This document shows positions 18,015 to 41,800 of a stretch of 64,000 nucleotides of DNA, piece by piece; within the stretch, counting starts at the first letter, position 1; each line of letters begins with the position of its first letter. Made by a program: the position numbers and the translations under genes. The stretch lies in the IMG/VR virus record IMGVR_UViG_3300037264_003921, positions 61,264 to 125,263 of that record; one strand, 5' to 3'. The stretch is from a virus. A model generated the notes under the pieces. The model saw nothing but the letters and a program-made list of their open reading frames with translations, did no database searches and was not told the origin of the DNA.

Positions 18015-19163
18015 TTAGTCAACAAATATATAGTCATTATGATTTGGACCTGTCCCAATCATTACAACTGGTATACCTGCGGTCTCTTCCATCTTATCAA
18101 TAAATTTTCTAACCTTAATTGGCAGTTTATTAAACTGCGTTCTGCCGCCATGCATCTGATACGCAGACCAGTCAATATATTGTGGAAAATTTAATATCTG
18201 TTTAGTAGCCCCGCAGAATGAAGCGGATTCTTTAAGCAATTGCCATGAGAATGTAAACACACGTCTAATCTTCTTAGTAACTGTGGTACGTTCTTTTTCT
18301 GCCAACACTGATATCTCTGATTCAGGCATACCAGCTTCCCTGCCAATCTGATCCCATGTTAATTCATGTTGATCAGACATACAATCACCAGAGTATCCAG
18401 TTTGTTTCCCATCTCTATAATTATTACCAACACGAATAGGGAATGTTCTGACGTTTAGATACACGTCACCAACCATATTTGGTAATATGCCAAGATCAGA
18501 ATATGCTTGTTGTGGTGTGCAGTCTCTGAACGTACAATATGGATAGTGTGTGCCATGATTGACAGATAAAGCAAATCCTTGTGATACTTCATGCATAATT
18601 GAGTGCCCATCGCTTAACGTTCTGCGCACAGTATCAACAAATTGCATAGGCGTCAAAGTACTCATAACGTCGCTAGCTAACGTTGTCTCCGGTCTGCGCA
18701 TTGATTTCTCTGAAAATGCAGCTCCTGAGCCAGACATTGTTGAAGAAACTCTTTCTGTTGATTGAGATCCATTAGGAGATTCAATATCAATATGCCGCTG
18801 GCTCATAATAACAGCGCGTTGATGGATTTTGACAAGTTTATCATTTATTTTATAGCCAGTTTGTTCAAGTTCCTTATTAAATTGTTCAATCATAAATCCA
18901 GATCCTGGACCAACAAATAAATTCAAATTGCTAAATCTGTCTGCTTTAGTCTTATGAAGAATCGCTGAAGTTGGAACTACTTTTGCAACAAATTTGACAT
19001 TACCATCTAATCCATCAATGATGGCAGTATGTCCAGCATTTGCATAATTACATGTTGAAACATTATTAATATTATATATATCAACAAGCCGCGTTGATGC
19101 AGCTCCTTTTGCAGAGCTACCCCAGGCTGAGTCAACAATACAATTAAGTTTACCCTTTTGCAT
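18015..19163 (-). CDS. purZ: PurZ-type adenylosuccinate synthetase (2-aminoadenine pathway)
   Basis: The 382-residue protein belongs to the PurA/PurZ family. PurA has a WGDEGKGK loop whose Asp is catalytic; here the loop reads WGSSAKG (residues 14-20), with Ser16 in place of the Asp. This Asp-to-Ser/Gly change is the hallmark reported for phage PurZ, which uses dGMP instead of IMP and makes N6-succino-2-aminodeoxyadenylate. Other PurA landmarks remain: NAGHT (H45), SGSGAAFSEKSMRR, SQGF...NHGTHYPY, and a C-terminal IGTGPNHND. Cellular PurB and kinases would then give dZTP. The gene has a GGAGG site. A DatZ-like gene lies at 41.2 kb. A short, otherwise normal PurA is the alternative, but the missing Asp argues against it. 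Confidence 0.85.
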   Translation of the reverse strand: MQKGKLNCIVDSAWGSSAKGAASTRLVDIYNINNVSTCNYANAGHTAIIDGLDGNVKFVAKVVPTSAILHKTKADRFSNLNLFVGPGSGFMIEQFNKELEQTGYKINDKLVKIHQRAVIMSQRHIDIESPNGSQSTERVSSTMSGSGAAFSEKSMRRPETTLASDVMSTLTPMQFVDTVRRTLSDGHSIMHEVSQGFALSVNHGTHYPYCTFRDCTPQQAYSDLGILPNMVGDVYLNVRTFPIRVGNNYRDGKQTGYSGDCMSDQHELTWDQIGREAGMPESEISVLAEKERTTVTKKIRRVFTFSWQLLKESASFCGATKQILNFPQYIDWSAYQMHGGRTQFNKLPIKVRKFIDKMEETAGIPVVMIGTGPNHNDYIFVD

Positions 19164-19249
19164 AATCCCTCCTGCCTACTGTATGAAATGCTTTACCATA
19201 TTTAGCGAGTGTTTCATTAATATCTACATTCACTCATTGTGTACAGTAA

Positions 19250-19576
19250 TTATAACTTGGATGCATGATCAATTGACATACGGAATGGCCAACACCTCCA
19301 ACAGCGTGTGCATCGAACGGCCTTCCTGCCGTCGCGGGTAAACCGGTGTGAACAGGGGCTTGATCCGTCCGGGATGATATAGCCCTTGGCGTCCAAATGC
19401 ACTGGCCATAACTCTTCGACCCATTCCTTCGCCTTACAACCCATCCATTGGCATTCACGACGATAGCCGCCGCCGACAAATTCCTCGATGGCATACCACT
19501 GACTCCATGCATGGTGAATAGTGCCATTGGTGCATCGCTTAAGACGCTTTTTCTTGTTCACCTTACGCATGCCCAT
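19250..19576 (-). CDS. Zinc-ribbon-like ORF of GC-rich islet 2
   Basis: About 108 residues, lysine-rich at the start (VNKKKRLKRC), with cysteines in C...CQWMGC and CTRCWRC arrangements and several tryptophans, typical of a small zinc-binding protein. The codons are GC-rich in the third position, in contrast to the genes on both sides, so this is one of the acquired islets (about 19.25-19.58 kb). The frame also has a GTG six codons upstream, close to the preceding stop codon; the ATG is preferred. No known family. Confidence 0.55.
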   Translation of the reverse strand: MGMRKVNKKKRLKRCTNGTIHHAWSQWYAIEEFVGGGYRRECQWMGCKAKEWVEELWPVHLDAKGYIIPDGSSPCSHRFTRDGRKAVRCTRCWRCWPFRMSIDHASKL

Positions 19577-19597
19577 GAGATATTCTCTTATCACAAT

Positions 19598-20326
19598 TCA
19601 TAGACATTTAATGTATTTGGCCTGCCAGCCATTTTTAGACGTCGCCAAAGCAACATATTTGTCAACTAATGATTCTGGAACGTTATCCTTAATCCATTTT
19701 CTCTCGATCCATTTGAATCCAGCTTTTTTCAAAAACTCTTTTTGCAAATTAAAATCGGCATCGTCAAAATTAGGCTTGCCACTAAACCAGGCTTCAACCT
19801 TACAACGTGGCTCATTCATAATCTTCATAGCATGTTCTAAATTGTGCTTCGCCGCTAACTCACAACATGTTAATGCATCCCATAATGCTCTATGTCTCCT
19901 ACCTGAATCTACGCCATAATCAACAGCAAGGTGTTGTAGTCTTGTTGAATTAACATTACCAACAATCTTTTCATGTGGTAAATCATTTTTAGTGCATATC
20001 CATGGCAACGATAAAAACTCTGGCCACCTCTTTGTTATTAATCCTTTATCATAATCTTTATTATGTGCAACAATAACCACTGGTTTATAATGCTCTACTA
20101 ATTTCCATGGATTAAATTCACAACTATAACCATTATTAGATACGTCACGTTTAATTTTGTGTATAACTTCCGCTTCATTTGACCATTTTGTTGTTTTAAG
20201 AATATCAGAATGCATTGCTACAACCTGACTGTGGGTCGTATCATATACGACCATGCCGATCTCTACTATTTCATCAACATCAATGTTGAGACCAGTGCTC
20301 TCTACGTCAACAGATAAAATAATCAT
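19598..20326 (-). CDS. DnaQ-like 3'-5' exonuclease
   Basis: The protein (about 242 residues) has the three exonuclease motifs: SVDVESTGL (Exo I, DxE) near the N-terminus, VIVAHNKDYDKGL (Exo II, with the His-Asn before the Asp), and HRALWDAL (Exo III with H and D five apart, DEDDh type). The C-terminal 80 residues are extra and lysine/tryptophan-rich. It could proofread for the DnaE- or PolA-type polymerases, which here lack exonuclease domains, or degrade DNA or RNA. The ATG at 20326 is preferred over a TTG five codons upstream. Confidence 0.8.
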   Translation of the reverse strand: MIILSVDVESTGLNIDVDEIVEIGMVVYDTTHSQVVAMHSDILKTTKWSNEAEVIHKIKRDVSNNGYSCEFNPWKLVEHYKPVVIVAHNKDYDKGLITKRWPEFLSLPWICTKNDLPHEKIVGNVNSTRLQHLAVDYGVDSGRRHRALWDALTCCELAAKHNLEHAMKIMNEPRCKVEAWFSGKPNFDDADFNLQKEFLKKAGFKWIERKWIKDNVPESLVDKYVALATSKNGWQAKYIKCL

Positions 20327-20351
20327 TAACCACAAAGCCAATTATATCGTT

Positions 20352-20717
20352 TTAATTCCATGGAATTTTCTCCACCCAATGTTGTGGGACCCATAATAAT
20401 GACCCATCATTAAACTCGACACGATAATGCTTGTGGTCTCGTTTAGTTACTCTAGCTGGTTCCATATATTTTACATGTTCTTTATTAATTACTATAATCC
20501 ATGTACCCTCATTGAGTTCTGGGATTTGTGTTTTAAAAACTGGTATTCTATTGACTATCGCCAATTCACTATTTGACAGTCTGGCCCAAAACAAATTTGT
20601 GCATTTTATGCATATGATCGGTACATAGCCAACCTTCTCCCATGAAGAAGATACAGCTTTATTTTGCACATTACAAAATGGACAATTGAAATCGTCTGTT
20701 ATAGACTCATTTGACAT
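20352..20717 (-). CDS. Hypothetical zinc-ribbon protein
   Basis: About 121 residues with FNCPFC and IICIKCTNLFW forming a likely four-cysteine zinc ribbon near the N-terminus. The second half is beta-rich with a YRVEFNDGSLLWVPQHWVEKI segment, like a small SH3-type or Tudor-like barrel. A start at 20783 would add a lysine-rich leader but would overlap the DeoC-like gene by 77 bases; the later ATG, with an 11-base overlap, is chosen. Function unknown. Confidence 0.6.
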   Translation of the reverse strand: MSNESITDDFNCPFCNVQNKAVSSSWEKVGYVPIICIKCTNLFWARLSNSELAIVNRIPVFKTQIPELNEGTWIIVINKEHVKYMEPARVTKRDHKHYRVEFNDGSLLWVPQHWVEKIPWN

Positions 20718-21426
20718 CTGGACCCAACGTGTCGACGGCTTTTTCTTTGGCTGGCTCTTGCGTTTTTTGCGTTTCTTGCTCATTATAAAACCTAATTATA
20801 TTACTAGCTTGGTTTAGATTAACATCAAATCGCATATTTCTATCAGATTTAAATGCTTCAATTGTCTCATATGTCACATTACATGATATCTTTATCGGAG
20901 TAACGATCTTATTACGAACAACAGCAATCGCTTTCTTATGATCCTCCAATCCAACGCCATTCTTCAATGTATATGGATCTAATCTAACCCAATTACATGG
21001 ATATTTCACAATGGCATCAATATGCTGTTCAGATATACCACGGCCATAAGACCCAACTATCCATCTAATTTCAGCAACTGGGTTCACAGATTTTAAAAAT
21101 TCAGAAATTAATCTAACTTCATTGTCAATCTCTTTCCCAGTATGGCCATTTGAATACATTATATCGAATCCATCCGCAGCCAACGCATCCTCAGAAAGAT
21201 CACGCAATTTTTGCATTGCAAAATTCTTGCCATCAGGATAGTCAATAACAGCAATAATTTTATACTTACCACGTTTTGAAACCCTATCAGCGATAAATGG
21301 GGCAACTAAGCTAGGCACAGTAACTATTGCAGGGCAACTGTGTTTAAATACAAATGCGCCAACACGTACTGGATTTACCATTTTATCTAAAGCATTTAAT
21401 TCTAATCGTGTAGTAATTTGCAACAT
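20707..21426 (-). CDS. DeoC-like (TIM-barrel aldolase) protein
   Basis: The 239-residue protein resembles deoxyribose-phosphate aldolase-type barrels: VRVGAFVFKHSCPAIVTVP, then VIDYPDGKN, then ALAADGFDIMYSNGHTGKE, corresponding to the family order in which a Gly-rich phosphate turn and the (G)ADEIDMV strand occur. The catalytic lysines cannot be placed with confidence. Its start overlaps the end of the deoxyribosyltransferase-like gene, so the two are coupled. A role in deoxyribose or deoxynucleoside salvage is an inference. The C-terminal 25 residues are Glu/Lys/Gln-rich. Confidence 0.5.
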   Translation of the reverse strand: MLQITTRLELNALDKMVNPVRVGAFVFKHSCPAIVTVPSLVAPFIADRVSKRGKYKIIAVIDYPDGKNFAMQKLRDLSEDALAADGFDIMYSNGHTGKEIDNEVRLISEFLKSVNPVAEIRWIVGSYGRGISEQHIDAIVKYPCNWVRLDPYTLKNGVGLEDHKKAIAVVRNKIVTPIKISCNVTYETIEAFKSDRNMRFDVNLNQASNIIRFYNEQETQKTQEPAKEKAVDTLGPDVK

Positions 21427-22001
21427 TTCTTTTCCTTTTCATTTGTAAAACCATCATAACATACTGAAAACCATTTCAATGGGTCCATCTTAATACTGCC
21501 ATTATCCAATTTATCAACATGCCCAATTAATTGATCCCATGTTCTGAAAAACACATGATCCATATCTTGTGGCGTTGAAAACCTCTGTAATACCCATGTT
21601 GATGCAATCCCATCTGGCATACAAAATAAGACTGGTTTATCTATATCAGCTGCTAGATATATCTCTTCGAACGTGCCTGCGGTATACTTAATTGGCATCC
21701 AACATATAATCCAATCAGCAGACGACACCATTTTCAAACAAACTTGACGTAATTCTTTATTTGCATCGAATACATCATTTATTGTTATCCCAACAGGCTC
21801 ACCATTTAGACTTTTACGATATAATTTTGGGTCTACTTTTGAAATATCAGACAACCAACTAGGTTTAACTAATGGATCATATACTTTGACATTATATTTT
21901 AATAAACTACTAGTTATTTGGGTACGCCAATCTTTTGCATGGTCATCATGTTCAACTGGACCTGCTAAATATACTCGCGTGCCACCCAATAAATTCCCCA
22001 T
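21402..22001 (-). CDS. Nucleoside 2-deoxyribosyltransferase-like protein
   Basis: The 199-residue protein begins TRVYLAGPVEHDDHAKDWR, the typical strand-and-turn start of the nucleoside 2-deoxyribosyltransferase family, followed by VKVYDPL, DVFDANKELRQ, ADWIICWMP and AGTFEEIYLAA (the family's catalytic-Glu region), then KPVLFCMP. Such enzymes exchange or hydrolyse the base of deoxynucleosides. Next to PurZ and with a DatZ-like enzyme in the genome, it may recycle deoxyadenosine released from dATP; that is an inference. It is coupled to the DeoC-like gene. Confidence 0.72.
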   Translation of the reverse strand: MGNLLGGTRVYLAGPVEHDDHAKDWRTQITSSLLKYNVKVYDPLVKPSWLSDISKVDPKLYRKSLNGEPVGITINDVFDANKELRQVCLKMVSSADWIICWMPIKYTAGTFEEIYLAADIDKPVLFCMPDGIASTWVLQRFSTPQDMDHVFFRTWDQLIGHVDKLDNGSIKMDPLKWFSVCYDGFTNEKEKKCCKLLHD

Positions 22002-22201: not shown

Positions 22202-22209
22202 AATTACCT

Positions 22210-25897: not shown

Positions 25898-28039
25898 TTA
25901 ACTTACTATTCGTGAAAAGCCATCGATATCTTGCAATACTGTTATCTGATTTGAGAATTGATCCGCCATTTCAGCTTTATGACTTATAACCAATATAGTA
26001 TCGGGCTTATCAGGACGATCACCAGAGAAATCATTATGAATGACATCAACAAATGCCCTAACTCCATGCTGATCAAGACTACCATCTATTTCATCTAAAA
26101 CCATCACATTACACTGCTGGCCATACATCGAGATATATAAATCATATATTGCAAACATTATGGCAAGATCTATCCGTTTTTGCTGCCCACCGGAATGAAA
26201 GTCATAATCCCATTTTGATGTCTCTATAGATAATGTTGATGTAAATCTCAACTGTAAGTCGCATTCAAAAGCATTAAGATAATATTCTATTCGCTGATTG
26301 AGATATCCGACTAATTCCGATATTACAAACATTTTAATTTTATTTCTATCATGATAACTACGTCTAATATATTCATATTGTTTTATTAAATTGTCGAATT
26401 TTGTAATATTTAATAATGTATCACTTAATTTATTTTGTGAATCATTCAAATCACATAGAAATGTTGACTTAATGTCTAAATATGGATTCTGCCTACTACT
26501 TTCTTCGGCAATACGCTCATCTAGGTCTGTAATTGATTTGTGAATTTCAGAATATCGTAAGTGCACCCGCTCGGCATTCATTAATCCAATTTCAACATCA
26601 TCTAGTTTTATCTCTTCACTTAGCTCATGTACTAAATCTAAAATCCGTGAATTAACATCAATAAGTTTAGTCTTATAATCTAATTTTTGTGATATTTTAT
26701 CATCTATGTCGGCAATTTCTAATTTAATGCTATTCTTATCATTAAGTGTTCTAATCGCTTCATCGACAGTCATTGATGGCCTATTAATGATTATATCCTT
26801 TATCATAGCCATAATAGATGCAATTGCTTTGTTGATTTTTTCCAACTTAGAACACAATTCTGGCAGTTTGTCAACATATGGTTTACATAAGTCAGTTGTG
26901 TGTTCATTTGTAATAAGCTGTTGGCACGATGGGCATTTTGTCCCATTCTTGTTATTCCATTCAAATATCGTTTCATTTGTTGATGTAATGTCTTGTTTGA
27001 TCTTACGTTGTTCTAACACAAAAATAGACAATTTGCTGTTCAGGTCATTGTAGAGATTAACTAATCTGTCAGCATTTTTATGTGATTCAACTAATTCATT
27101 AACGTCTACAACTTTGATTGTATCGAATTTAGTCTTATAATTTACTAAAGATCTCTTTAGTCTTTCTATATCTATATTAAGTTGTGTTAATGCGGTGTCA
27201 GCCTTTAATAACTTGATCTTATTGTCTGATAATTTTGTTATTTTTTGTTTATATATTAAATAGTTAGATTTTATCAGTTCTAAATCTGGCAACACAATCG
27301 TCAATGCTTCATCATTGAGCTTCTTTATCTGTGCTTTAAAATGTATGGTCTTATTAGATCTTTCTTGTTCAAATCCTTCAATCTTTTGCTCAGCATGTGA
27401 TGCTTGATCTGTGAGTCTTTTAATGTCATTTTTAAATATATCAGCAACAGCACACAATTTCTGCTGCTCTATTTCTATAGCTGTCCGTTTTTCTTTAGCT
27501 ATATCACCCCACACGTTAAGTCTATTAAGACCAAGCATCCTTTCAAGGGCTGATTTTCTTTTGACATCGCTCATATCTAAAAACGATTGTGTACGTTGCC
27601 CAAAGAACATACTTGATGTAAATATTTCGTAATCAAGATTGAATAATTTATTCAATAATTGTTGTGCATTTTTATTCGTCGATAATGTTATATCCTTACC
27701 ATCTTTATTAATTAATAGATCATCATGTCCGTTTAGATTCCTGGTGCGGGTTATTGTCCATCCATCAGTTGTTGTTATTCGAACATAACATTCTTTTTTA
27801 GTCGTAAAATTTATTACTTTATCGCCTGGTGATGATTTTCTCGGCGTTCTTCCAAAGAGACACCATATTATAGCAATGGTTATCCCTGATTTACCTGTAC
27901 CATTAGACTCATCAGGCCGACCATCTTTACTTCCAATAATCAATACAGGCCCTAAAGATAATAAATCTAATGATGACTCATAGTCGCCATAACTTAAAAA
28001 GTTAGACCATTCTAGTTTATTTATGCGTAATATGGCCAT
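25898..28039 (-). CDS. SbcC/Rad50-like ATPase (gp46-like)
   Basis: The 713-residue protein has the SMC/Rad50 layout: Walker A (ESNGTGKSGI, near residues 42-51), long coiled coils on each side of a zinc-hook CPSCQ near residue 367, then the ABC signature (HSGGQQKRIDLA, near 615) and Walker B (NVMVLDEIDG, near 646). With the adjacent SbcD-like nuclease it should form the DNA-end resection complex used in T4-like recombination-dependent replication and in host DNA breakdown. The gp47-like gene is 12 bases upstream, so they form an operon. Confidence 0.93.
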   Translation of the reverse strand: MAILRINKLEWSNFLSYGDYESSLDLLSLGPVLIIGSKDGRPDESNGTGKSGITIAIIWCLFGRTPRKSSPGDKVINFTTKKECYVRITTTDGWTITRTRNLNGHDDLLINKDGKDITLSTNKNAQQLLNKLFNLDYEIFTSSMFFGQRTQSFLDMSDVKRKSALERMLGLNRLNVWGDIAKEKRTAIEIEQQKLCAVADIFKNDIKRLTDQASHAEQKIEGFEQERSNKTIHFKAQIKKLNDEALTIVLPDLELIKSNYLIYKQKITKLSDNKIKLLKADTALTQLNIDIERLKRSLVNYKTKFDTIKVVDVNELVESHKNADRLVNLYNDLNSKLSIFVLEQRKIKQDITSTNETIFEWNNKNGTKCPSCQQLITNEHTTDLCKPYVDKLPELCSKLEKINKAIASIMAMIKDIIINRPSMTVDEAIRTLNDKNSIKLEIADIDDKISQKLDYKTKLIDVNSRILDLVHELSEEIKLDDVEIGLMNAERVHLRYSEIHKSITDLDERIAEESSRQNPYLDIKSTFLCDLNDSQNKLSDTLLNITKFDNLIKQYEYIRRSYHDRNKIKMFVISELVGYLNQRIEYYLNAFECDLQLRFTSTLSIETSKWDYDFHSGGQQKRIDLAIMFAIYDLYISMYGQQCNVMVLDEIDGSLDQHGVRAFVDVIHNDFSGDRPDKPDTILVISHKAEMADQFSNQITVLQDIDGFSRIVS

Positions 28040-28051
28040 ATTTTAATGCTA

Positions 28052-29146
28052 CTACGACATCTCACCGTCTTGCTCTTCAGTAGATGCTATACGTTCAATA
28101 CCGTCTTCTACTATTTGTTTATTCAGATTTAATACTTCATTCGTATCAATATTTTCTGGCATATCATGTTTTATCCATTGTTCAAATAACACAGATCCAT
28201 CCCCAAGATTTGATTTTGTCACATTTGATATGCTAGTATCTTCTTCTTGTTTGGTCTTCATCCATTTTACTACTTTGGCACCATTCGACAATATTTTATT
28301 GCGTAATTCAGTCAATTCATTACTAGTATAATCTCTAGATAAACATACTCTAATATGATTATCGCGTACATTAATCTTCTCTACATCAGAGTCAACACAC
28401 GTAATATAATCAGGAGCATGCTCCTGATTAGGTAATAATAGTTTACCTACATCAAATGTTTTAATAAACTTGTGGTCCATTGTCTCAGTATCAAATTCAA
28501 TGAACCCATGGTCAACTAACCCTTCATCAAATCTGAATGGTATTGGACTTCCAGTGTACCATGTTTTATCACCAACTTTTTGATGGCAATGAAAATGCCC
28601 AGAATATATCCTATGAAATTTAGTCTGTGAAAAATCAACAACACTCCAATGTTTTAATAAAAAACATTCATTAAGCGATGCTCCAGCTACTCCAATATGC
28701 GTCAATAACACATCTTTATCAGTTGCCTTTGACTCTATCGCCTTCACAACTTCCATATATGCAGATTCATAATGAACAAATGGCAATATCCAAAATTTAA
28801 CACCACCATATTGAAGAGCTTTCACATCCTCTATTATTGTTACAACTCTACTAAGTGGTCTAACAGAATTAACTTCCCATGAGTTCTTAAGATACATATC
28901 ATGGTTGCCAGGAAAGACTGCCCATTCTTGATTATAATTTTTTTCAGTGTCATCAAAAAAGTCATATGCAGTTGTCAACACCTGAATATTCAGGCTAGTC
29001 CTATCATGAAACAAATCACCAAGGACTATGACAACACCAATATCATTTTTAGATGCATATTCTCTTATGACTTTAGATGCCCACAACGAATGTTCTAATT
29101 TATTCGGGACACCAAAATGAATATCAGATGTAAGAATTAAACGCAT
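28052..29146 (-). CDS. SbcD/Mre11-like nuclease (gp47-like)
   Basis: The 364-residue metallophosphoesterase has the expected motifs: SDIHFGVPN near the N-terminus, VLGDLFHDR, PGNHDMYL, THIGVAG and a GHFHCHQKV near residue 188. These bind two metal ions. It is the nuclease subunit of the complex with the SbcC/gp46-like protein encoded next. The C-terminal 60 residues are acidic and may bind the ATPase partner. Confidence 0.92.
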   Translation of the reverse strand: MRLILTSDIHFGVPNKLEHSLWASKVIREYASKNDIGVVIVLGDLFHDRTSLNIQVLTTAYDFFDDTEKNYNQEWAVFPGNHDMYLKNSWEVNSVRPLSRVVTIIEDVKALQYGGVKFWILPFVHYESAYMEVVKAIESKATDKDVLLTHIGVAGASLNECFLLKHWSVVDFSQTKFHRIYSGHFHCHQKVGDKTWYTGSPIPFRFDEGLVDHGFIEFDTETMDHKFIKTFDVGKLLLPNQEHAPDYITCVDSDVEKINVRDNHIRVCLSRDYTSNELTELRNKILSNGAKVVKWMKTKQEEDTSISNVTKSNLGDGSVLFEQWIKHDMPENIDTNEVLNLNKQIVEDGIERIASTEEQDGEMS

Positions 29147-32497: not shown

Positions 32498-34833
32498 GCG
32501 AATACAACCTTAGTAAATGGTGGTGAAGGACATGCCCCTGGATCAAATGAGCCTGTAACGCTAACTGTCATAGTGTCTGTATTTAGTACTGCATCAGTTA
32601 CAGTTATATCAACAGATGATGACAATACAGTAACTAACGCTCCATTCAAATTGCCAGTTAAGAGTCCTAGAGATACCGTTAATGGTAATGTACCAACTGT
32701 CACAGTAAACGAGTATGGTGGAACGCCACCAGTTGCACTAGCCCATGCCGGTACTGAGATAGAACCGCCAATACAACCCTGTACTGGCAATGTCAGTGAT
32801 AATTGTAGCGCCGCTGGTGGAGGCGGTGGAGGCGGTGGAAGTGATGGTGGCGGCGATGATAGAGTAGTGGTAGGCGACTGTGGAGTCTCTACATTTTCGA
32901 ATCCTACGAAAGAAAATCCAGATGGTACTGTAGGTTGTGTCGGCTCTGGTGGTCCAACAGAACCTGGTGTCGGCTCTGGCGGTGGTTCAACAGTACCTGG
33001 TGGTGGTAGTTGTGAAACTGGCGGGTCAGGTATACCAGGACCGCCACCAGTTGGACACACACACTGCACTGATGTCTCAACCTTATATCCTCTACAACAA
33101 TTTATTTGATCCTCATTAACGATTAATTTTAACGCAAATGTCTTCTTTGGACAGAATGACTCTTCGTTGCCATTGACAAACCCAGTATCTCCCGAAAATT
33201 CATATGTGATTGGCATATTACCAGACTTCACATCATCATTTATAGATGCTTTTGTCTTAACCTGACAATTATCAACATATCCTGGTTTATTACGCTGTTC
33301 TTTACATAGTTCATCATCAAATGAAACTTTTACTGTAACCTTCCAGCCACCAGCTACGCTTATTTGTTCATTAAATTGATCAACACTACCACCTATCACA
33401 CTAGAAACAGATCCTGAAGACAATGGGCCGTTCGGGCAATTAATTGGAGGTAATGTAAAACCACCATTCTGTAACTCAAATGCAATTGGAGAATCACATT
33501 CGCAAAAGTCCAATCCAGGAGATCCAGTTAAATGAGGTTCAAACGTTACAGGTGGGTCAATCTTACCACTAATACCACATGTATTGTCACCAATATTAGG
33601 ACACCAGAAAAAGTCTTCTTCACAACATTGTTCTGGCGGTCTTGGATCTGTTGCAATCTTAAACATATATCTTGGATTTACTCTTTCGAACCAATTAAAT
33701 CTACGCACATTATAATGTCCAGCGTCACAACAGTCAGGTGTTGGAGTCCATGCAGGTAAGTCAAGCTTCGGCTGAATAAATTCATCGGGAATAAATTTAA
33801 ATTTTCCAATGTCCTTACATTGCTTAGATGTCACGCTAACAGCAACAAGTGATGCTTTGTCTATTTTGCCCATAGGCATCACACCACTATGTAACAAATT
33901 AAATGAGCATACGTCTTCGAACATCGGCTTTTTAACAAACAAAACGTTGTCAGTCGTAAATGGTTTTCTTAATGACACCATAGCATCAGTAGACCGCAAC
34001 AACGGATCATCAAAAAATTGTTCAATTATTTGAAAAAAACTACTGCCATTATCGCCTTTCTCGCCTTTTAGACCAATCTGCCTAGCTTTATACTTCCATG
34101 TTCCTATATCATCAGCACCAGATGTAAATCTTATTGTTCCAGATAAATGTTGAGTAACCACATCATATGTCATGATTAATGATGACATCTCTACTTCAGG
34201 ACTATCTTCAAACTGGATTACTGTAACCTCATCAGTATCACCAATTGGGATTAACAGTTCAAGTATTGTTATATCACTTCTAAAAATCCTCAATGATATG
34301 CGTGTGTCTAATGGCGTTGAAACTGTAGTTTCAAACCTTAATTCATTGTCCTCAGCAAATATTGGATCTAAAAATTTTTCATTGCCAGCTTTAATTCCAT
34401 CACGTCCTTGTTTCCCTTGAAGGCCTATTTTCCCTTTAGGACCCCTACAACATGTTTTCGTAATTTTAGACAACATCCTTGCCCTATCAATTTCTACCCT
34501 TAACTTATTTTGTGATTCAGGATAGAACCGTACTAAATCATCTGACGAATAAAAGAAATAAAAATATGGTGACAACCCATCAACATCTATTTTAAATTGG
34601 TCGAATTTAACACCATTTTTTATCAGCTTGTTGATTAAATTTAGTTTCTCAAATATTTTAGGTGTGATGATACCTGGATTTTCTTGTGAAACTATTGGAG
34701 GAGTTTGTATTATGCCATGATATATCCAAGTACGCTCTTCGGCATCAAATTCATATCGATTACCTGAATCGTCTATAACCTGATCACCATCTAGAGCACC
34801 AACTAATGGCAATTTTATTACTTGTTTAGGCAT
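32494..34833 (-). CDS. Collagen-like and proline-rich virion/fibre protein
   Basis: The 779-residue protein has an N-terminal domain that starts with a GDQVIDDSGNRYEFD tail-fibre-like stretch. Short collagen-like Gly-X-Y runs occur near residue 134 (GPKGKIGLQGKQGRDG) and 250 (GLKGEKGDNG). A cysteine-rich middle follows (CCDAGHY, CCEEDFFWCP, CPKK, CCRGYK, CVCPTGG). Then comes a proline-rich linker of about 100 residues, including a run of eight prolines, and a C-terminal Ig-like domain. It is probably an extended fibre or appendage. A prolyl-hydroxylase-type gene is two genes downstream. Its start overlaps the end of the actin-like gene. Confidence 0.7.
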   Translation of the reverse strand: MPKQVIKLPLVGALDGDQVIDDSGNRYEFDAEERTWIYHGIIQTPPIVSQENPGIITPKIFEKLNLINKLIKNGVKFDQFKIDVDGLSPYFYFFYSSDDLVRFYPESQNKLRVEIDRARMLSKITKTCCRGPKGKIGLQGKQGRDGIKAGNEKFLDPIFAEDNELRFETTVSTPLDTRISLRIFRSDITILELLIPIGDTDEVTVIQFEDSPEVEMSSLIMTYDVVTQHLSGTIRFTSGADDIGTWKYKARQIGLKGEKGDNGSSFFQIIEQFFDDPLLRSTDAMVSLRKPFTTDNVLFVKKPMFEDVCSFNLLHSGVMPMGKIDKASLVAVSVTSKQCKDIGKFKFIPDEFIQPKLDLPAWTPTPDCCDAGHYNVRRFNWFERVNPRYMFKIATDPRPPEQCCEEDFFWCPNIGDNTCGISGKIDPPVTFEPHLTGSPGLDFCECDSPIAFELQNGGFTLPPINCPNGPLSSGSVSSVIGGSVDQFNEQISVAGGWKVTVKVSFDDELCKEQRNKPGYVDNCQVKTKASINDDVKSGNMPITYEFSGDTGFVNGNEESFCPKKTFALKLIVNEDQINCCRGYKVETSVQCVCPTGGGPGIPDPPVSQLPPPGTVEPPPEPTPGSVGPPEPTQPTVPSGFSFVGFENVETPQSPTTTLSSPPPSLPPPPPPPPAALQLSLTLPVQGCIGGSISVPAWASATGGVPPYSFTVTVGTLPLTVSLGLLTGNLNGALVTVLSSSVDITVTDAVLNTDTMTVSVTGSFDPGACPSPPFTKVVFA

Positions 34834-35866
34834 TTATTGGTTCTTCGTGTAATTCAGAAGCGATTAAACATCCCTCAGCTATTGCATATAATGGTTCTTC
34901 TGATCTTATTATTGCACCTATTTCAAATGGCATTTTCTGAGTCGACAACACACTCTTAAATAAATCTAAGAATCCATTTGGCATTGAAGTCCCACCAGCA
35001 CAAACAATTGGCATTGGACGTTCAGCTCTTGCTTTTGATTCATTATGTCTGAATCCATCTGCAATTGCTTTTGCAACATTCTCTATCAATATTTGATAAT
35101 TGATAAATATTGCTTTTTCTAAATTAGTATCAGGCATGCCATTGCCTAAGTTGATCTTTTCCTTAGCTTTAGTCACAAGAACCTTTGGTTTTTCAGTTCC
35201 ACCTTCAACCTTTTCTAAGTTGCCTGTAACACGTGCGCTCTCGATATCAACCCAATCACCAGAGCCAACAATAGAAAACTCATAAATAGGCATTCCATAT
35301 AAACAATATGATATATTGACCATGCCAGCCCCAAATGAAATTCCTATCCCAGTCCTATCAGGAATCTGCGAAACAACTATTGCTCTTGCTTCATTAATTG
35401 GGAATGCTCTTACAGTTCTACCTTCTGTAGTTTTATATGAATCTAAGATTGCTTGTACGACTTTCTGATGATATCGTACATTGACATTAGCATTTATTGC
35501 CGATCCTGGAACACAATAATACATTATAGCGTCTTCATCTAATTTCCATATCAAACTCTTAATTATTACAGCCATTATTTTCATCGCTTCTTCTTCACCA
35601 ATAGCCAAAACACCGTTTTCCATTGGCCTGCGTAGGACCTTCCCAAAATGATATGCTATTTCCTCAGCTTTCATACCGAGAGCAGTGAACTTATCATCCC
35701 TTTCTATAAATGGAATGCCCTGTGATGTCAAAATCTGTTTTATGAATCCATCACCTTTGACTATATCGACAAACCCATTCACTTCTCTTTTAAACTTAAG
35801 CTTTCCTTGTCTTCTTTCAGCAAGAACTATATTCTTAGTTCCTATATCTAATCCTAATTTCTTCAT
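34826..35866 (-). CDS. Actin-like ATPase (ParM/MreB-type)
   Basis: About 346 residues. The N-terminus MKKLGLDIGTKNIVLAERR is the actin-family phosphate-1 loop; INEARAIVVSQ and GIGISFGAGMVNISYC supply the central loop and phosphate-2, and PIVCAGGTSMPNG supplies the adenosine loop near the C-terminus. The frame is open upstream for another 82 codons, but AGGAG before this ATG and a separate gene in another frame upstream favour this start. Actin-like filaments segregate plasmids and position phage DNA. It heads the operon encoding fibre-like proteins and the oxygenase, an odd company. Confidence 0.8.
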   Translation of the reverse strand: MKKLGLDIGTKNIVLAERRQGKLKFKREVNGFVDIVKGDGFIKQILTSQGIPFIERDDKFTALGMKAEEIAYHFGKVLRRPMENGVLAIGEEEAMKIMAVIIKSLIWKLDEDAIMYYCVPGSAINANVNVRYHQKVVQAILDSYKTTEGRTVRAFPINEARAIVVSQIPDRTGIGISFGAGMVNISYCLYGMPIYEFSIVGSGDWVDIESARVTGNLEKVEGGTEKPKVLVTKAKEKINLGNGMPDTNLEKAIFINYQILIENVAKAIADGFRHNESKARAERPMPIVCAGGTSMPNGFLDLFKSVLSTQKMPFEIGAIIRSEEPLYAIAEGCLIASELHEEPINA

Positions 35867-35888
35867 TACACCACTCCTATATGATTGC

Positions 35889-36299
35889 CTACGGAGATAT
35901 CTTATGATCTTGTTTTGGAGTTTTCTTGGTATTCTGTTCAACTTCAGTTCCGAAGCTAACCTTAGTCGGACCGGTGCTGGCAAAGAATTCAGGTCCGATA
36001 TGCTCTTCAGCTCTCTTATCGTCTCCAGTACTTCCTTTAGCATCTTTGGCGGAAGTAGAAGCGTTGATAGGTCCTTGTACAATTCCAGTGGTATGTCTTT
36101 GTCTATCCTCATTTTTTATTACTATCAATCCATCTATATGTAGATTTACATCACGTAACCGTTTAATTGGATGTCTCAAGTACAACAATTCCATACAAAC
36201 GTCACACGACAGTAAATGTTCAGCACGTCTCAACTCATAAGCATTAAAACAATAATTATTATTATTAACAAACAAATTCTTAAGCCATTTAAATATCAT
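35889..36299 (-). CDS. Hypothetical protein upstream of the actin-like gene
   Basis: A 136-residue protein starting MIFKWLKNLFVNNNN, with a CDVC pair near residue 33 and a long hydrophilic, Lys/Glu/Thr-rich C-terminal half. It ends 22 bases before the actin-like start. It covers the same DNA as the in-frame extension of the actin-like ORF; this frame is favoured because of the ribosome-binding site that follows it. It could be an actin regulator by position; that is a guess. Confidence 0.5.
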   Translation of the reverse strand: MIFKWLKNLFVNNNNYCFNAYELRRAEHLLSCDVCMELLYLRHPIKRLRDVNLHIDGLIVIKNEDRQRHTTGIVQGPINASTSAKDAKGSTGDDKRAEEHIGPEFFASTGPTKVSFGTEVEQNTKKTPKQDHKISP

Positions 36300-37158: not shown

Positions 37159-37554
37159 ATGGACGAACACACTAGCGGAAACGGTGGATGCGGGAACCAA
37201 TCAACTAGCTCAGCTCTTCCAGGCCAGGCGTTCGGTATCAGCGACGTGGCGGCCGGGAAACTCAAGTCGATCATGGAGCAGGAAAAGAAGGATCCCGCGA
37301 CGATCGGCCTGCGCATCGGCGTACAGGGCGGCGGATGCTCCGGGCTCCAGTACTTGATGGATTTCGACGAGAAGCGCGCCGACGATCGCGTCTTCGAGAA
37401 CGGCGGCATGAAAGTTTACATCGATCCGCGCAGCGTCCTGCACGTGTCGGGCTCGATTCTCGAATACCAGGACGGCCTCATGGGCTCCGGCTTCGCGATC
37501 AAGAATCCGAACGTCAAGGGTAACTGCGGCTGCGGGAAGTCGTTTTCGACGTAG
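37159..37554 (+). CDS. A-type iron-sulfur carrier (IscA/ErpA/HesB family), GC-rich
   Basis: The 131-residue protein has the three family cysteines: GGGCSGLQY near residue 60 and CGCGKSF at the C-terminus. ISDVAAGKLKSIM and the VYIDPRS / FAIKNPN segments complete the pattern. An N-terminal Gly/Ser/Cys-rich extension of about 25 residues is unusual. The codons are strongly GC-rich (third positions mostly G or C), in contrast to the AT-rich genes on both sides, so it was probably acquired from a bacterial host recently. A GAGGTGGGG site precedes the ATG. It may mature a phage or host Fe-S protein such as the family-4 uracil-DNA glycosylase encoded here; that is an inference. Confidence 0.9.
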   Translation: MDEHTSGNGGCGNQSTSSALPGQAFGISDVAAGKLKSIMEQEKKDPATIGLRIGVQGGGCSGLQYLMDFDEKRADDRVFENGGMKVYIDPRSVLHVSGSILEYQDGLMGSGFAIKNPNVKGNCGCGKSFST

Positions 37555-37556: not shown

Positions 37557-38210
37557 TTAATCAACAAATTTAGCTATCTCATTTATCCAGTCTAATCCTT
37601 CGTTTTCAACATCTAAGTGTTTCAAACCTCTTTCTGGATCGATTCTATTACTGGTCTTTTTGCCATTTATTGAAATTATATTATCTAGATTAATAGATAG
37701 GATTTTATTAAATTTTTTAGTGATAATATAATTAGTATGTCTATCATTAGTATCATACACCCTACTATTCTTTACATCATAAAATTCTGGGTTGTTTTTA
37801 CGGATTTGTAATGATTTGCCGTGGGATCTTGGCCTGCTTGTAATAGCCCTAACTTCTGATTCACGATGTGTTGGGTCTATACCGGCTAATAATGTTCCAC
37901 CATCAATCACTTTAACAAAATCAGCATAAATGACTCGTTGTTTTGCATTAGGATCGTTTTCTAATTTTAATAGATTAGCTTTATGTGTTTTAAGCTCCGG
38001 ATAGATTTCCTGTAAATCGTATTCAAGATGGTAAATGTAATTATCACGATCACGTTTGGTCCAATAGGCGAATTTGCAAATCCTTGATAACAATTTAGAT
38101 AATTGGCTTTGTTTATATTGGATTTGGCTGGTAATAAAGCGGATCTTTTTTAACAAATAAGCTTGTTCATTGGATAATGGCTTTAATATGATTGTATATG
38201 CTTTAGGCAT
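37557..38210 (-). CDS. Hypothetical protein next to a nuclease-fold gene
   Basis: A 217-residue, lysine-, arginine- and isoleucine-rich protein. The N-terminal 100 residues are helical (PKAYTIILKPLSNEQAYLLKK). The middle has an SRPRSHGKSLQIRK segment and the end is acidic. It directly follows the nuclease-fold gene with no gap, so the two are coupled. It converges on the GC-rich iron-sulfur gene with a two-base gap. Function unknown. Confidence 0.6.
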   Translation of the reverse strand: MPKAYTIILKPLSNEQAYLLKKIRFITSQIQYKQSQLSKLLSRICKFAYWTKRDRDNYIYHLEYDLQEIYPELKTHKANLLKLENDPNAKQRVIYADFVKVIDGGTLLAGIDPTHRESEVRAITSRPRSHGKSLQIRKNNPEFYDVKNSRVYDTNDRHTNYIITKKFNKILSINLDNIISINGKKTSNRIDPERGLKHLDVENEGLDWINEIAKFVD

Positions 38211-38765
38211 CTATAATAGATTTGGCGTGGGGATGGAGTTGCGAGCGTGGATTAAAAAATCCTCATATGTTCCTTCTGGATGTGTTCTAATCCACTTTTC
38301 AAATCGATTATATAGGATTGTGTTTGGTTGTCGATTAATATAATTGCCTATCGCTCTTGTTGATTTTTTGCGCGGGAGATTACGTAATTGCTTAACATAT
38401 TCTTGTCCTTTAGACTCAAGAGTCACACTTTGTGGGTCATTTAATGAAACTGGTGGCAACTTTACCTTACCATACCATCTTGATAATTTTCTGATTCTAT
38501 TATATATGCGATTCATCAGTTTGAGTTTTCTAAGGTCAAATGGCGTAACCTTAACTAGACCAACATTGTTGAGGTGACATAGTTTGATTTTCTGGGAGGA
38601 TGTTGGCGTGTAATGTTCTTGAAATTCTATACCAACTCTCAAGTCTTGGTAGTAAAAATCTAATCCTAATTTTTGTGGCCAGTCGGGCCTATAATTTACA
38701 AGTAGGGGTGTGGTTGGGAGGAACAGTTTCAGCCATTTAGCTGTCAAATCTTGACCATAGGGCAT
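38211..38765 (-). CDS. Possible PD-(D/E)XK/Vsr-type endonuclease
   Basis: The N-terminal 80 residues contain GLDFYYQDLRVGIEFQEHYT, the LDFxxxxxxxxIEFQ pattern of restriction-endonuclease-fold proteins of the Vsr/DUF559 type, followed by IKLCHLNNVGLVKVTP, a strand that in this fold follows a catalytic lysine. The remaining 100 residues are basic. It may be a free-standing homing or recombination nuclease. It lies directly beside the dyad-rich non-coding region. Confidence 0.55.
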   Translation of the reverse strand: MPYGQDLTAKWLKLFLPTTPLLVNYRPDWPQKLGLDFYYQDLRVGIEFQEHYTPTSSQKIKLCHLNNVGLVKVTPFDLRKLKLMNRIYNRIRKLSRWYGKVKLPPVSLNDPQSVTLESKGQEYVKQLRNLPRKKSTRAIGNYINRQPNTILYNRFEKWIRTHPEGTYEDFLIHARNSIPTPNLL

Positions 38766-39343
38766 GTTGATTAAATACTATACATATAGAGGGTGGGATT
38801 AGGATTGGGGGATCCTATCAATCTTCTCTATCCGGGAGCCAGGGTAGGCTTTCCCCTTAGATGGATTGGAGGATTGGATTGTTATCCTTAGTCTTATAGA
38901 TTAGAATGGGTTCAATCTTCTCTATCCGGTTTGCCAGAAGCTTAAAATCCCCGTCTCTAATGGAGACGTTTGTAGGCTGCGCGTATTACATACCACTACT
39001 GTGGAGGATTTTACCCCTCTCTCTTTCGAGAAGCGATGCTATTCATCTACTGCAAATAGTCACGACCAATAAGTCCAGCAGGGGGTCCATAAATGGTGAA
39101 TCTCTAAATCACTTCGACTAGGATAACAAATTGTAAAGAACCAATTTTATTGGCCGTAAGGCGACATAAGTACATTGCACATAAATTACCCGGCCAAATT
39201 ATTAGCTATATCATGTTATTAATGCCCGGCTATTTCGGCGATTGATGATAGCTTATTAATGCCATAGCCGTTATCGGCGATATTATGCACCAATTAAGTA
39301 CTCATCCGTATGGCGTGACGAGTATTTAAGATATAATTATGGT
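38766..39343. other. Non-coding, dyad-rich region; possible replication origin or regulatory region
   Basis: About 580 bases between divergent genes hold no credible ORF. An 18-base sequence (TCAATCTTCTCTATCCGG) occurs twice, near 38818 and 38911. Several inverted repeats are visible: CGTCTC...GAGACG near 38952, TTGGCCG...CGGCCAA near 39150-39200 spanning about 50 bases, and TACTCATC...GACGAGTA near 39300. Two similar 15-base stretches ending TCGGCGAT lie near 39225 and 39270. The strand polarity of the genes changes here. Origin, promoter cluster and structured RNA are all possible. Confidence 0.45.
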
Positions 39344-39349
39344 GTGATT

Positions 39350-39655
39350 ATGAAGACAAAAGCGAGACAATTTGCTGTTGCTGCAAAGGATTGTGGAAAT
39401 GTCAGTGATTGGTTTGCATTTGTCGATAAATCACAACGTATTAAAATTGACTGTACTCTGAGTGGCAAGATAGATTCAGCAATTAAAATATTACGCAAAA
39501 AACCAAATACATATGATAGCCTTCTTATGACAGAGAATGAAGTTCAAGTGGTGTTAAAATGGTTTTCTATGGTGCCACAAATAGTTATAGATAATAGCGA
39601 CATTAAACTTAATAATGCTATGAACATGTTTTTGTCTAACAACACTAAGGAGTAA
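39350..39655 (+). CDS. Hypothetical protein, first gene of the plus-strand block
   Basis: About 101 residues, lysine-rich with a mix of helix and strand (KARQFAVAAKDCGNVSDWF...). A GTG two codons upstream of the chosen ATG is an alternative. It lies 4 bases before the GroES gene. Function unknown. Confidence 0.6.
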   Translation: MKTKARQFAVAAKDCGNVSDWFAFVDKSQRIKIDCTLSGKIDSAIKILRKKPNTYDSLLMTENEVQVVLKWFSMVPQIVIDNSDIKLNNAMNMFLSNNTKE

Positions 39656-39659
39656 TATT

Positions 39660-40004
39660 ATGGGATTCAGACCATTCGCCGACAGGGTGCTTGTAAAGCT
39701 GCACGACCAAAAAGAAGTAAAAACACCAAGTGGTATAGTTTTGCCAGAATCATCTGCGAAATTTAGGACAGCTGAGGTGGTAGCTATTGGAAGAGGTCAA
39801 GTTTCTGCGGAAGGTACAATTACACCGCTGGAAGCTAAAGTCGGCGACATAGTGCAGCTTATAGCGCATGGTGGCGACGATATGACAATTGGGAGTGATA
39901 AGTTTTTGCTAGTATCAGAAAGACTTATTGTTGGGATCATTGACGATAAAACACAAAAACCTGCACCAAAAATGGTAAGACTTTTATCTGAATCTAAGTC
40001 TTAA
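39660..40004 (+). CDS. GroES-type co-chaperonin
   Basis: The 114-residue protein has the GroES pattern RPFADRVLVKL at the N-terminus, then the mobile-loop segment with TPSGIVLPESS, AEVVAIGRGQ, KVGDIVQL and the C-terminal strand. T4 gp31 plays the same role with host GroEL in capsid folding, but this protein is closer to the bacterial type in its motifs. It is 10 bases upstream of kdsA. A C-terminal Lys/Pro-containing tail of about 20 residues is extra. Confidence 0.88.
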   Translation: MGFRPFADRVLVKLHDQKEVKTPSGIVLPESSAKFRTAEVVAIGRGQVSAEGTITPLEAKVGDIVQLIAHGGDDMTIGSDKFLLVSERLIVGIIDDKTQKPAPKMVRLLSESKS

Positions 40005-40013
40005 TCTATAGGT

Positions 40014-40799
40014 GTGGGTGATTTTACATGGATATTGGGTCCTTGTTCTATGGAGGATTATAATAATTATATCAACACCGCTCAATCATTGAATGATATA
40101 ATGGGGAATAGGGATTGGTATTATAAGGCATCATTTGATAAAGCAAATAGAAAAACAATAACAAGCAGCCGTGGTCCTGGGTTAGAATTGGGATTAGAGT
40201 TTATTTCATCATTAAAGCGAATCCTGCCTAATATAAAATTAACAACTGATGTCCATGATTGCAGCCAAGTGGAGAGATTAGTTGGCTACGTTGATTTAAT
40301 TCAAATCCCTGCATTCTTATGTAGGCAAACTGATTTGTTAGTTGAATGCGGCAAATATTTTAATATTGTAAATGTTAAACGTGGACAATGGGTGAGCCCT
40401 AAAGACACAGCATATTTTGCCAGCAAGATTAAGTCTAAAAACAACAAAGCTACAGTTTGGATCACAGATCGTGGTACAATGTTTGGATATGACAAATTAC
40501 TGGTTGATTTTGACGCAGCATCTGAGATTAGAAATCATTGTGATAAAGTATTATTAGATTGTACGCATTCTACTCAGGTTAGAGATGGCCAAAAGACAGG
40601 CGGTAATAGAGCGTTAGCTGAGAAATATTTATTGGCATCATCTGTGTTTAATTATGGTGGAGTATTTGCTGAAGTACATGGAAACCCACCAACAGCTATT
40701 TCTGATAGTGATTCACAAATATATCTTAGCAGAATTAGTGGACTAATAAAATTGAGAGAGAAGCTAGTTAACGATCTTAGCAATAGTATAATTGAATAA
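40014..40799 (+). CDS. kdsA: KDO-8-phosphate synthase (KdsA)
   Basis: The 261-residue protein follows the KdsA family along its length: ILGPCSMED, KASFDKANR, SSRGPGLELGL, TDVHD, QIPAFLCRQTDLL, VNVKRGQWVSP, DRGTMFGYDKLLVD, DCTHSTQ and EVHGNPPTAISD. The enzyme joins phosphoenolpyruvate and arabinose-5-phosphate to give 3-deoxy-D-manno-octulosonate 8-phosphate for lipopolysaccharide. The start is GTG. In a phage it is an auxiliary gene that could sustain or alter host LPS, or supply a sugar for virion glycans. It uses the phage's AT-rich codons, so it has been in phage for a long time. Confidence 0.9.
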   Translation: MGDFTWILGPCSMEDYNNYINTAQSLNDIMGNRDWYYKASFDKANRKTITSSRGPGLELGLEFISSLKRILPNIKLTTDVHDCSQVERLVGYVDLIQIPAFLCRQTDLLVECGKYFNIVNVKRGQWVSPKDTAYFASKIKSKNNKATVWITDRGTMFGYDKLLVDFDAASEIRNHCDKVLLDCTHSTQVRDGQKTGGNRALAEKYLLASSVFNYGGVFAEVHGNPPTAISDSDSQIYLSRISGLIKLREKLVNDLSNSIIE

Positions 40800-40812
40800 A
40801 AATATTATAACT

Positions 40813-41160
40813 ATGGCTGATTTTGAGACCAAATTAAACCAATGCTTTAGGATAATCACTGAAGATATGGATACATTTATATCAATAATGGAAAAGCCTT
40901 GGAATGTAAAGATTGACAAATTAGAAAAATATTTGCAAAATGCGACTGAAGATGAATTAATAGATTGGGTAAATTCACTTGAAATTGCAGTTTTAGATCG
41001 TGGAGAGCAGACACGTTGGACCTTGAGTTTGGCCGAGATGACACAAAGGCTTAAATTACCACAGTCGATAAAATTAGTATTGACAAGTGTGCTTGAAGCA
41101 TTACATGCTGCTCCATGGCAAAGTGTTGAAAAACATGACGATGATATGACATCAGTGTAA
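40813..41160 (+). CDS. Hypothetical protein
   Basis: About 115 residues, mostly helical (ADFETKLNQCFRIITEDMDTF...), with acidic start and end. The ATG at 40813, 13 bases after kdsA, is preferred to a TTG seven codons upstream. Function unknown. Confidence 0.6.
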   Translation: MADFETKLNQCFRIITEDMDTFISIMEKPWNVKIDKLEKYLQNATEDELIDWVNSLEIAVLDRGEQTRWTLSLAEMTQRLKLPQSIKLVLTSVLEALHAAPWQSVEKHDDDMTSV

Positions 41161-41176
41161 TGTCATTAATTTAAGT

Positions 41177-41214
41177 TCTAGGCGTATGTAATATATAATG
41201 AGAACACGCCTAGA
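41177..41214 (+). promoter_or_regulatory. Hairpin holding the datZ start codon in its loop
   Basis: TCTAGGCGT and ACGCCTAGA form a perfect 9-bp stem around a 20-base loop that contains the ATG of the DatZ-like gene. No clear ribosome-binding site precedes that ATG. The hairpin could end the upstream transcript or control initiation. Confidence 0.5.
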
Positions 41215-41800
41215 CGATACAGTTTTAGACACTGGACAGTGTTACAATAATGGTGATGGTTTAACTATTGGCTGTTTTTACGCTTTAGACTTCGTGAAAC
41301 ATTTCGGCAGGGTACAAACAGGGTCTAACATTTCGATTGCCATGCATAGCTATTTAGCAGCAATGATTGGTAGTGCGTGGTACACATATACAAAAAATGA
41401 TAAAAATTGGTCAATCAGCCAGCATGAATTTACTACGCTATGTCTTTTCCACGATGTTGCTGAAGCTCTTGTTGGGGATGTTTGGCGACCAGCAAAGACA
41501 AAAGAGGTAAGAGATCAAGAAGAAAAAGTTCACAATGCTATAATGAAGTTTATTACTATAGATACGAAAATTGCAAATGAATTTAAACATGAACAGGAAA
41601 AGATTGATAATTGTGCTCAATTTGTTGAATTAATCAGATATCTTGAAATAAGCCCAGGGCACAAGGTCTTTACTGAAATAGGCACACAGATGGCTAAAAC
41701 GATGGTTACAGAAGGCATGGAGGATTTTTGTTTGATAAATTTAGGGCTGTCTGAACATGAAATTGCAGTGGCACTACTAACAAAAGCAAAGGAGAAATAG
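41198..41800 (+). CDS. HD-domain nucleotide hydrolase, DatZ/YfbR-like
   Basis: The 200-residue protein has an HD-domain pattern: H50 in SIAMHSY, LCLFHDVAEALVGDV with H85, D86, E89 and D94, then the RPAKTKEVRDQEEK stretch and a distal Asp in the NCAQFVELIRYLE helix. This is the YfbR/DatZ group. DatZ removes the triphosphate from dATP in phages that replace adenine with 2-aminoadenine. Its presence with a PurZ-type synthetase is the basis for that assignment. A plain 5'-nucleotidase of the YfbR type is the alternative. Confidence 0.75.
   Translation: MRTRLDDTVLDTGQCYNNGDGLTIGCFYALDFVKHFGRVQTGSNISIAMHSYLAAMIGSAWYTYTKNDKNWSISQHEFTTLCLFHDVAEALVGDVWRPAKTKEVRDQEEKVHNAIMKFITIDTKIANEFKHEQEKIDNCAQFVELIRYLEISPGHKVFTEIGTQMAKTMVTEGMEDFCLINLGLSEHEIAVALLTKAKEK

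Follow-up and report, generated by a model that had tools for sequence, protein, structure and literature searches.

A PurZ-type synthetase and its conserved operon point to probable 2-aminoadenine in the DNA of a T4-type phage

Genomes containing 2-aminoadenine (Z), a base that replaces adenine, have been described as a trait of small siphoviruses and podoviruses, most of which encode a polymerase dedicated to Z (PMC8599892, PMC8342488). Could a large phage with a contractile tail also build its DNA with Z? The question is raised by an IMG/VR virus contig (record IMGVR_UViG_3300037264_003921), which is linear, 125,263 bases long and probably a fragment; the 64,000 nt analysed here, positions 61264-125263 of that contig, are referred to as the window. 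An earlier note on this DNA proposed a Z genome in a T4-like phage, from a homologue of adenylosuccinate synthetase (PurA) that resembles PurZ in having Ser16 at the place of the catalytic Asp, and from a putative DatZ encoded elsewhere in the window. The PurZ pillar of that proposal stands, on phylogeny, contact residues and predicted fold; the DatZ pillar falls, on residues and on distribution. Since these three lines of evidence strongly support the identification of the protein as a PurZ-type succino-aminodeoxyadenylate synthetase, it is reasonable to hypothesise that a T4-type phage has a Z-containing genome, and we put at roughly 70% the probability that this phage makes deoxy-2-aminoadenosine nucleotides and incorporates Z into its own DNA.

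The synthetase gene has exactly the coordinates and length that the earlier note gave it:
18015-19163, minus strand: PurZ (succino-2-aminodeoxyadenylate synthetase), 382 aa, identified by phrog_1211 (3e-50), NCBIfam PurZ (6.7e-58), PDB 6fm1 (1.6e-32), tree position, residues and an AlphaFold2 (AF2) model.
19116-19118, minus strand: codon of Ser16, which aligns with the catalytic Asp13 of PurA when the S-2L, phiVC8 and E. coli sequences are compared.

The N-terminal stretch reads IVDSAWGS16SAKG, with GSSAKG as the P-loop. All aligned rows of the viral PurZ clade have Ser at the Asp13 position, where Asp-type archaeal PurA and the PurA of E. coli carry Asp, indicating that Ser16 is not there by chance, with the caveat that, of the two patterns used to retrieve PurZ relatives, one (and not the other) itself contained Ser. 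This residue by itself does not identify a PurZ, because non-phage paralogues also carry it. The NCBIfam PurZ profile is preferred over the PurA profile TIGR00184 (6.7e-58 versus 2.3e-30), and a PDB profile search ranks phiVC8 PurZ first (1.6e-32), ahead of the archaeal PurA of Pyrococcus and then S-2L PurZ; PurA of E. coli comes much lower. The AF2 model has a predicted local distance difference test score (pLDDT) of 96; its top Foldseek matches are 6fko, 6fm1 and 7odx (phiVC8 and S-2L PurZ), and ranks 1-5 are all crystals of dGMP-specific PurZ. We also compared 29 positions that contact dGMP, the adenine nucleotide or belong to the aspartate loop in S-2L PurZ (PMC8342488). In the alignment, 26 of the 29 are identical, among them S23, N49, A50, T132, R146, Q190, Y203-C204-T205, R240, V241, T273-T276, R280, N305, F306, Q308, G335 and P336; the three changes are Y21 to W (W14 in the window), G25 to A (A18) and G130 to S (S140). 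The nucleotide pocket reads T-K-x-D in E. coli and Asp-type archaeal PurA, and N-F-x-Q in the window protein, as in S-2L PurZ. These residues and this fold support well the view that the enzyme very probably acts on dGMP.

The earlier note suggested placing the protein in a phylogeny with PurZ and PurA. In an IQ-TREE phylogeny of 83 sequences (support written as paired values), it falls with viral PurZ and outside cellular PurA, in a 68-row viral PurZ clade (100/97). Within that clade it belongs to a 35-row subclade from large phages (99/95), which is sister (94/75) to the classical clade that includes the biochemically tested PurZ of phiVC8 and S-2L. PurZ0, the Ser-type synthetases of DPANN archaea and of Rhizobium plasmids, Asp-type archaeal PurA and E. 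coli PurA all branch outside the viral clade. Two groups of Ser-type synthetases outside this clade are worth recording in their own right: those on DPANN archaeal and Patescibacteria contigs (L097, L099, L101, L103 and L112), and GSEGKG paralogues on Rhizobium and Sinorhizobium plasmids (L127:772-2376 and L128:1387-2427), adjoined by hypothetical genes.

That the phage is T4-type and contractile, as the earlier note held, is borne out by matches to a gp23-type capsid, sheath, tube, portal and baseplate wedge (phrog_138, 3.5e-83; phrog_23, 4e-76; phrog_213; phrog_219; phrog_4542) and to a terminase, and the phage is probably a jumbo T4-type myovirus:
3115-5958, minus strand: T4-type tail sheath, indicating a contractile tail (phrog_23, 4e-76).

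When the window PurZ alone was used as query against IMG/VR, there was no match. With an alignment as query, 536 contigs with PurZ relatives were found, and the best 35 or so of these matches are mostly on contigs of ~50 to 427 kb. To avoid choosing relatives by PurZ, we picked them through the capsid protein, which retrieved 138 contigs (the best 80 at 72-85% identity). All 8 tested contigs of this capsid lineage that are at least 156 kb long have PurZ, and none of 12 shorter ones (at most 153 kb) does; the 12 are not counted as losses, because capsid gene and purZ lie ~50 to 140 kb apart in the long contigs. T4-type capsid and sheath occur across the lineage of the window phage. Loci L017-L025, whose PurZ belongs to the same 35-row clade, match neither the T4-type capsid nor the T4-type sheath family, so PurZ is found in more than one lineage of large phages. 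The earlier note expected a contractile, T4-type Z phage to be unusual; the window phage is no lone oddity, since PurZ is widespread in large phages. In the literature searched, we found no description of PurZ in jumbo or T4-type phages. On the same contig, upstream of the window, the portal protein is encoded in a frame of 1442 aa with two intein-like insertions (L003:13852-18180, minus strand).

How might such a phage deal with dATP? The earlier note pointed to an HD_3/YfbR-family protein, and one is indeed encoded 22 kb from purZ:
41198-41800, plus strand: HD_3/YfbR-family phosphohydrolase, the proposed DatZ (PF13023, 2e-9; PF12917, 6.5e-8).

Its identification as DatZ fails on the residues that define DatZ and on its distribution. 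By published criteria, R19, W20, I22 and Q29 are strictly or conservatively kept in DatZ (PMC8065100); here they are H, F, R and I. In our reference alignment, R19 is kept in seven phage DatZ and in E. coli YfbR, and Q29 in 7 of 7 phage DatZ. The protein retains equivalents of the metal ligands H34, H66, D67, E70 and D75 (that of D119 is uncertain in the alignment) and of P79 and K81, and it weakly matches a PHROG named dATP triphosphohydrolase (1.1e-6). No HD_3 protein was found in 13 PurZ-bearing relatives of the lineage, in searches that matched the DatZ of S-2L and phiVC8 as positive controls, and the protein itself has no match in the phage collection at 1e-5. We therefore reject it as DatZ and treat it as a putative accessory phosphohydrolase. 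Its distance from purZ and the lack of MazZ mean that there is no datZ-mazZ-purZ cluster. As the earlier note stated, MazZ was not recognised: among ORFs of the 125-kb contig, a fragment, there is no match to MazZ, DUF550 or MazZ-2 below E 0.04. The ORF at 61808-62125 (ERDYQNTKW), considered as a MazG-type MazZ, has no Pfam, PDB or MazZ support and has homologues in Rhizobium myophages.

The earlier annotation overlooked both a DnaQ-like exonuclease gene beside purZ and a conserved operon that includes genes for a nucleoside 2-deoxyribosyltransferase (NDT) superfamily protein and a protein with the fold of deoxyribose-5-phosphate aldolase (DERA):
19598-20341, minus strand: DnaQ/RNase T-like 3'-5' exonuclease beside purZ (PF00929, 5.6e-9; phrog_192, 1.3e-22).
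20707-21426, minus strand: DERA-fold (deoxyribose-5-phosphate aldolase-like) protein of a 239-aa family (AF2 and Foldseek; synteny in 15 loci).
21402-22001, minus strand: NDT superfamily protein, DmtZ-like in position only (PF15891, 9e-9; PF05014, 1e-6).
25898-29146, minus strand: SbcC-like and SbcD-like recombination nuclease genes, the upstream part of the block (phrog_77, 6e-81; phrog_100, 2e-38; synteny).

In the window and ~14 large contigs the order is SbcC, genes of unknown function, NDT, DERA-fold gene, one or two genes, and purZ. An NDT gene lies just ahead of the DERA-fold gene at 13 of the 15 syntenic loci (which include the near duplicates L045 and L047), and two different NDT subfamilies fill this place. 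The DnaQ-like gene adjoins purZ in the window, L017, L032 and L036. In 10 large-phage loci the gene after purZ encodes a xylose-isomerase-like TIM barrel (PF01261; e.g. L039:11276-12106), which the window lacks.

The catalytic Tyr and Glu are conserved in the window NDT (Y11 and E112, aligned), encoded near purZ; hhalign gave probabilities of 2% (A4) and 28% (A3) against two DmtZ domains, a weak profile comparison. Members of family NDT132 all match PF05014 (9 of 9), and its profile most resembles nucleotide N-glycosidases of the blasticidin M/CMP hydrolase kind, the group to which DmtZ has been likened (PMC12884076). The DERA-fold family has no assigned Pfam family. Its AF2 model (pLDDT 88) has best Foldseek matches that are almost all deoxyribose-5-phosphate aldolases (best E 1.3e-10); as a sequence-recognisable DeoC it was rejected, since Pfam, a PDB profile search and hhalign gave nothing solid and the likeness is seen by fold search alone. 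An NDT freeing deoxyribose 5-phosphate, beside a protein whose fold binds that compound, would make a coherent pair, as we propose.

The window purZ seems to have a history apart from that of its neighbours. It is nearest to purZ of L017 (63%) and L018 (61%), unlike the rest of the operon and the polymerases, which are nearest to those of L027 and L032, and a tree in which the syntenic lineage was constrained to one PurZ clade was rejected (p-AU 0.00012, approximately unbiased test; the group was picked after the tree was seen). Since the window purZ is of another subclade than the purZ of its syntenic relatives, the gene appears to have been swapped without loss of PurZ from the locus, which argues that PurZ function is needed.

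Incorporation of Z would fall to the phage's DNA polymerases. The split DnaE reported in the earlier note is there, as two ORFs (phrog_405, 9e-106 and 5e-116), and a family-A polymerase is encoded downstream:
42669-44078, plus strand: N-terminal part of DnaE (Pol III alpha), with PHP and the start of the polymerase domain (PF02811, 1.3e-39; PF07733, 1e-25; phrog_405).
45469-47670, plus strand: C-terminal part of DnaE (palm, fingers, HHH), beginning at the FDID catalytic motif (PF17657, 2e-32; PF07733, 1e-23; phrog_405; reading frames).
56932-58074, plus strand: compact family-A DNA polymerase domain, 380 aa, with no exonuclease domain (PF00476, 2.4e-16; phrog_17, 5e-18).

The ~1.4 kb between the DnaE ORFs (44063-45475) has a TTGAAT repeat at each edge and holds two ORFs, one of which (44812-45270) is weakly like the DnaE region before the break. 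A known intron was rejected, there being no Rfam match; DnaE frames in relatives range from 737 to 1265 aa. A DnaE-type replicase is no obstacle to Z, since E. coli, whose replicase is DnaE, puts Z into its chromosomal DNA when datZ, mazZ and purZ are expressed (PMC8342488). The earlier note's statement that a DpoZ-type polymerase is absent holds for known DpoZ, while overlooking the compact family-A polymerase. Conserved counterparts of this protein are encoded in 14 further large PurZ contigs (34-42% identity across the 11 others aligned), and the catalytic motifs (TGR, D-W, R...K and HD) are intact. Judged as a phiVC8-like family-A polymerase with a fused 3'-5' exonuclease, insertions and Phe in helix O, it is not a known DpoZ: it lacks the fused exonuclease, the window protein has Tyr for the helix O Phe, and the sequence is not DpoZ-like. 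The preference of phiVC8 DpoZ for Z has been attributed, as a proposal, to backtracking of the polymerase (PMC8599892). By analogy, the separate DnaQ-like exonuclease might contribute to a preference for Z, although we offer this as an idea only.

We can now sketch how Z might be made and used. PurZ would join dGMP and aspartate, with ATP or dATP as energy source, to give succino-2-aminodeoxyadenylate, from which host PurB would free dZMP for conversion to dZTP by host kinases. The two-ORF DnaE, perhaps with the compact family-A polymerase, would insert dZTP opposite T. Competition from A would be lowered by the operon partners rather than by a classical DatZ: the NDT-family enzyme would act on a deoxynucleotide such as dAMP and the DERA-fold partner on the released sugar phosphate, with the DnaQ-like exonuclease perhaps also taking part. 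More tentatively, we suggest that jumbo T4-like phages may have a third route to Z-DNA, in which PurZ, an NDT-family dAMP N-glycosidase or transferase, a DERA-fold drain of sugar phosphate, and an exonuclease-free family-A polymerase with a separate DnaQ-like exonuclease for Z-over-A selectivity replace DatZ, MazZ and DpoZ.

Several observations weigh against Z in this genome, or against parts of the scheme. The window PurZ scores 196 bits with NCBIfam NF038379 (PurZ), the best of six families, and does not reach the cut-off of 300, a threshold presumably derived from the phiVC8-type group. The window NDT is not PurZ-specific, as it has a homologue in a 595-kb phage record where PurZ gave no match (a search run with no positive control alongside). 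The Schiff-base Lys167 of DERA appears to be an invariant Arg in the DERA-fold family, with Lys201 conserved, in a motif register placed on predicted strands; because of this replacement, we do not call the protein an active aldolase. Finally, searches of the 125-kb contig, itself a fragment, revealed no DatZ, MazZ, DutZ or known DpoZ.

That last result speaks for the most serious competing explanation, which we consider somewhat less than an even chance: PurZ is active, and Z is a partial or minor component of an A and Z mixture, with neither dATP removal nor a Z-selective polymerase. S-2L PrimPol accepts A as well as Z; in that phage, A is kept out by DatZ (PMC8065100). On the other hand, the operon partners could deplete deoxyadenosine nucleotides, PurZ itself can take dATP as its energy donor (PMC8342488), and the genome is incomplete. 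Full replacement of A by Z is uncertain, since nothing that clearly removes dATP was found. We consider improbable a complete classical pathway, in which dZMP comes from PurZ and the HD protein acts as a DatZ, destroying dATP to give full replacement; the HD_3/YfbR fold, metal ligands, P79/K81 equivalents and weak PHROG match agree with it, but the changes at R19, W20, I22 and Q29 (the aligned DatZ keep R19 and Q29), the absence of HD_3 proteins from the 13 relatives and the distance from purZ do not. 

A PurZ-like enzyme acting on dGMP might also make a product for non-genomic use, such as nucleotide-pool or counter-defence chemistry, and Ser-type paralogues are indeed present in settings not known to have Z genomes (DPANN archaea, a Patescibacteria genome and Rhizobium plasmids). 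Yet the window protein sits inside the viral PurZ clade, apart from those paralogues, and its operon holds replication and recombination genes, making this an unlikely explanation. Least likely is an auxiliary cellular-type PurA that boosts ATP supply, with Ser16 incidental: the Pfam family is the same (PF00709, 1e-24), but Asp13 is essential and ~99% conserved in PurA (PMC12884076), the pocket is that of S-2L PurZ, and the tree position is far from PurA.

Other genes of the contig deserve brief mention. The window encodes a 428-aa protein that matches Volactin, an archaeal actin family (34826-36112, minus strand; PF25216, 6e-59), an actin-like gene in a T4-type phage; a KDO-8-phosphate synthase-like (KdsA) protein (40014-40799, plus strand; NCBIfam, 9e-71), which points to a Gram-negative host or to envelope modification; and an IscA/HesB-like protein, recognised by eye (37159-37554, plus strand), whose gene has 59.6% G+C in a 37% G+C window, indicating recent transfer or an assembly chimera. 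A reverse transcriptase-like ORF of 487 aa, also recognised by eye, lies elsewhere on the contig (L002:16175-17638, minus strand).

Compared with the classical Z-cluster phages (S-2L, phiVC8, SH-Ab 15497 and ZP6), the window phage is alike in PurZ family, in Ser for Asp13, in contacts to dGMP and ATP/dATP, and in fold. Those phages have siphovirus- or podovirus-type genomes of ~38 to 67 kb, with datZ and mazZ adjoining purZ and mostly DpoZ; by contrast, the window phage is a large T4-type phage with a PurZ of a distinct subclade, NDT and DERA-fold neighbours, and none of DatZ, MazZ and DpoZ found. With the PurZ0 phages that have DmtZ and DutZ (Wayne, Ghobes, Beethoven and Galactica) it shares an NDT-superfamily gene accompanying the synthetase, and A18 of the P-loop; it differs in that its PurZ is outside the PurZ0 clade, its NDT is not demonstrably DmtZ and there is no dUTPase fusion. 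The nearest isolated phage is Flavobacterium phage MaF61 (PQ858689, 168 kb), a myovirus by transmission electron microscopy, which is T4-like and contractile and encodes a GSSGKG PurZ-like protein of the same 35-row clade, a placement made less sure by its long branch. Unlike the window phage, MaF61 also encodes PurB, and it has no match to the DnaE and PolA-like genes of the window. The paper describing MaF61 shows a virion with a contractile tail, and its searched passages contain no discussion of Z (PMC13269007).

We conclude that Z probably enters the DNA of a whole group of giant phages, in partial or full replacement of A, something that would be new to the literature. The idea is directly testable, since MaF61, a member of the clade, is in culture. 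If true, a large PurZ clade in T4-type and other giant phages would extend Z-DNA to genomes hundreds of kilobases long whose replicases are of the DnaE type; it would also broaden the anti-restriction chemistry available to jumbo phages and be a source of new enzymes.

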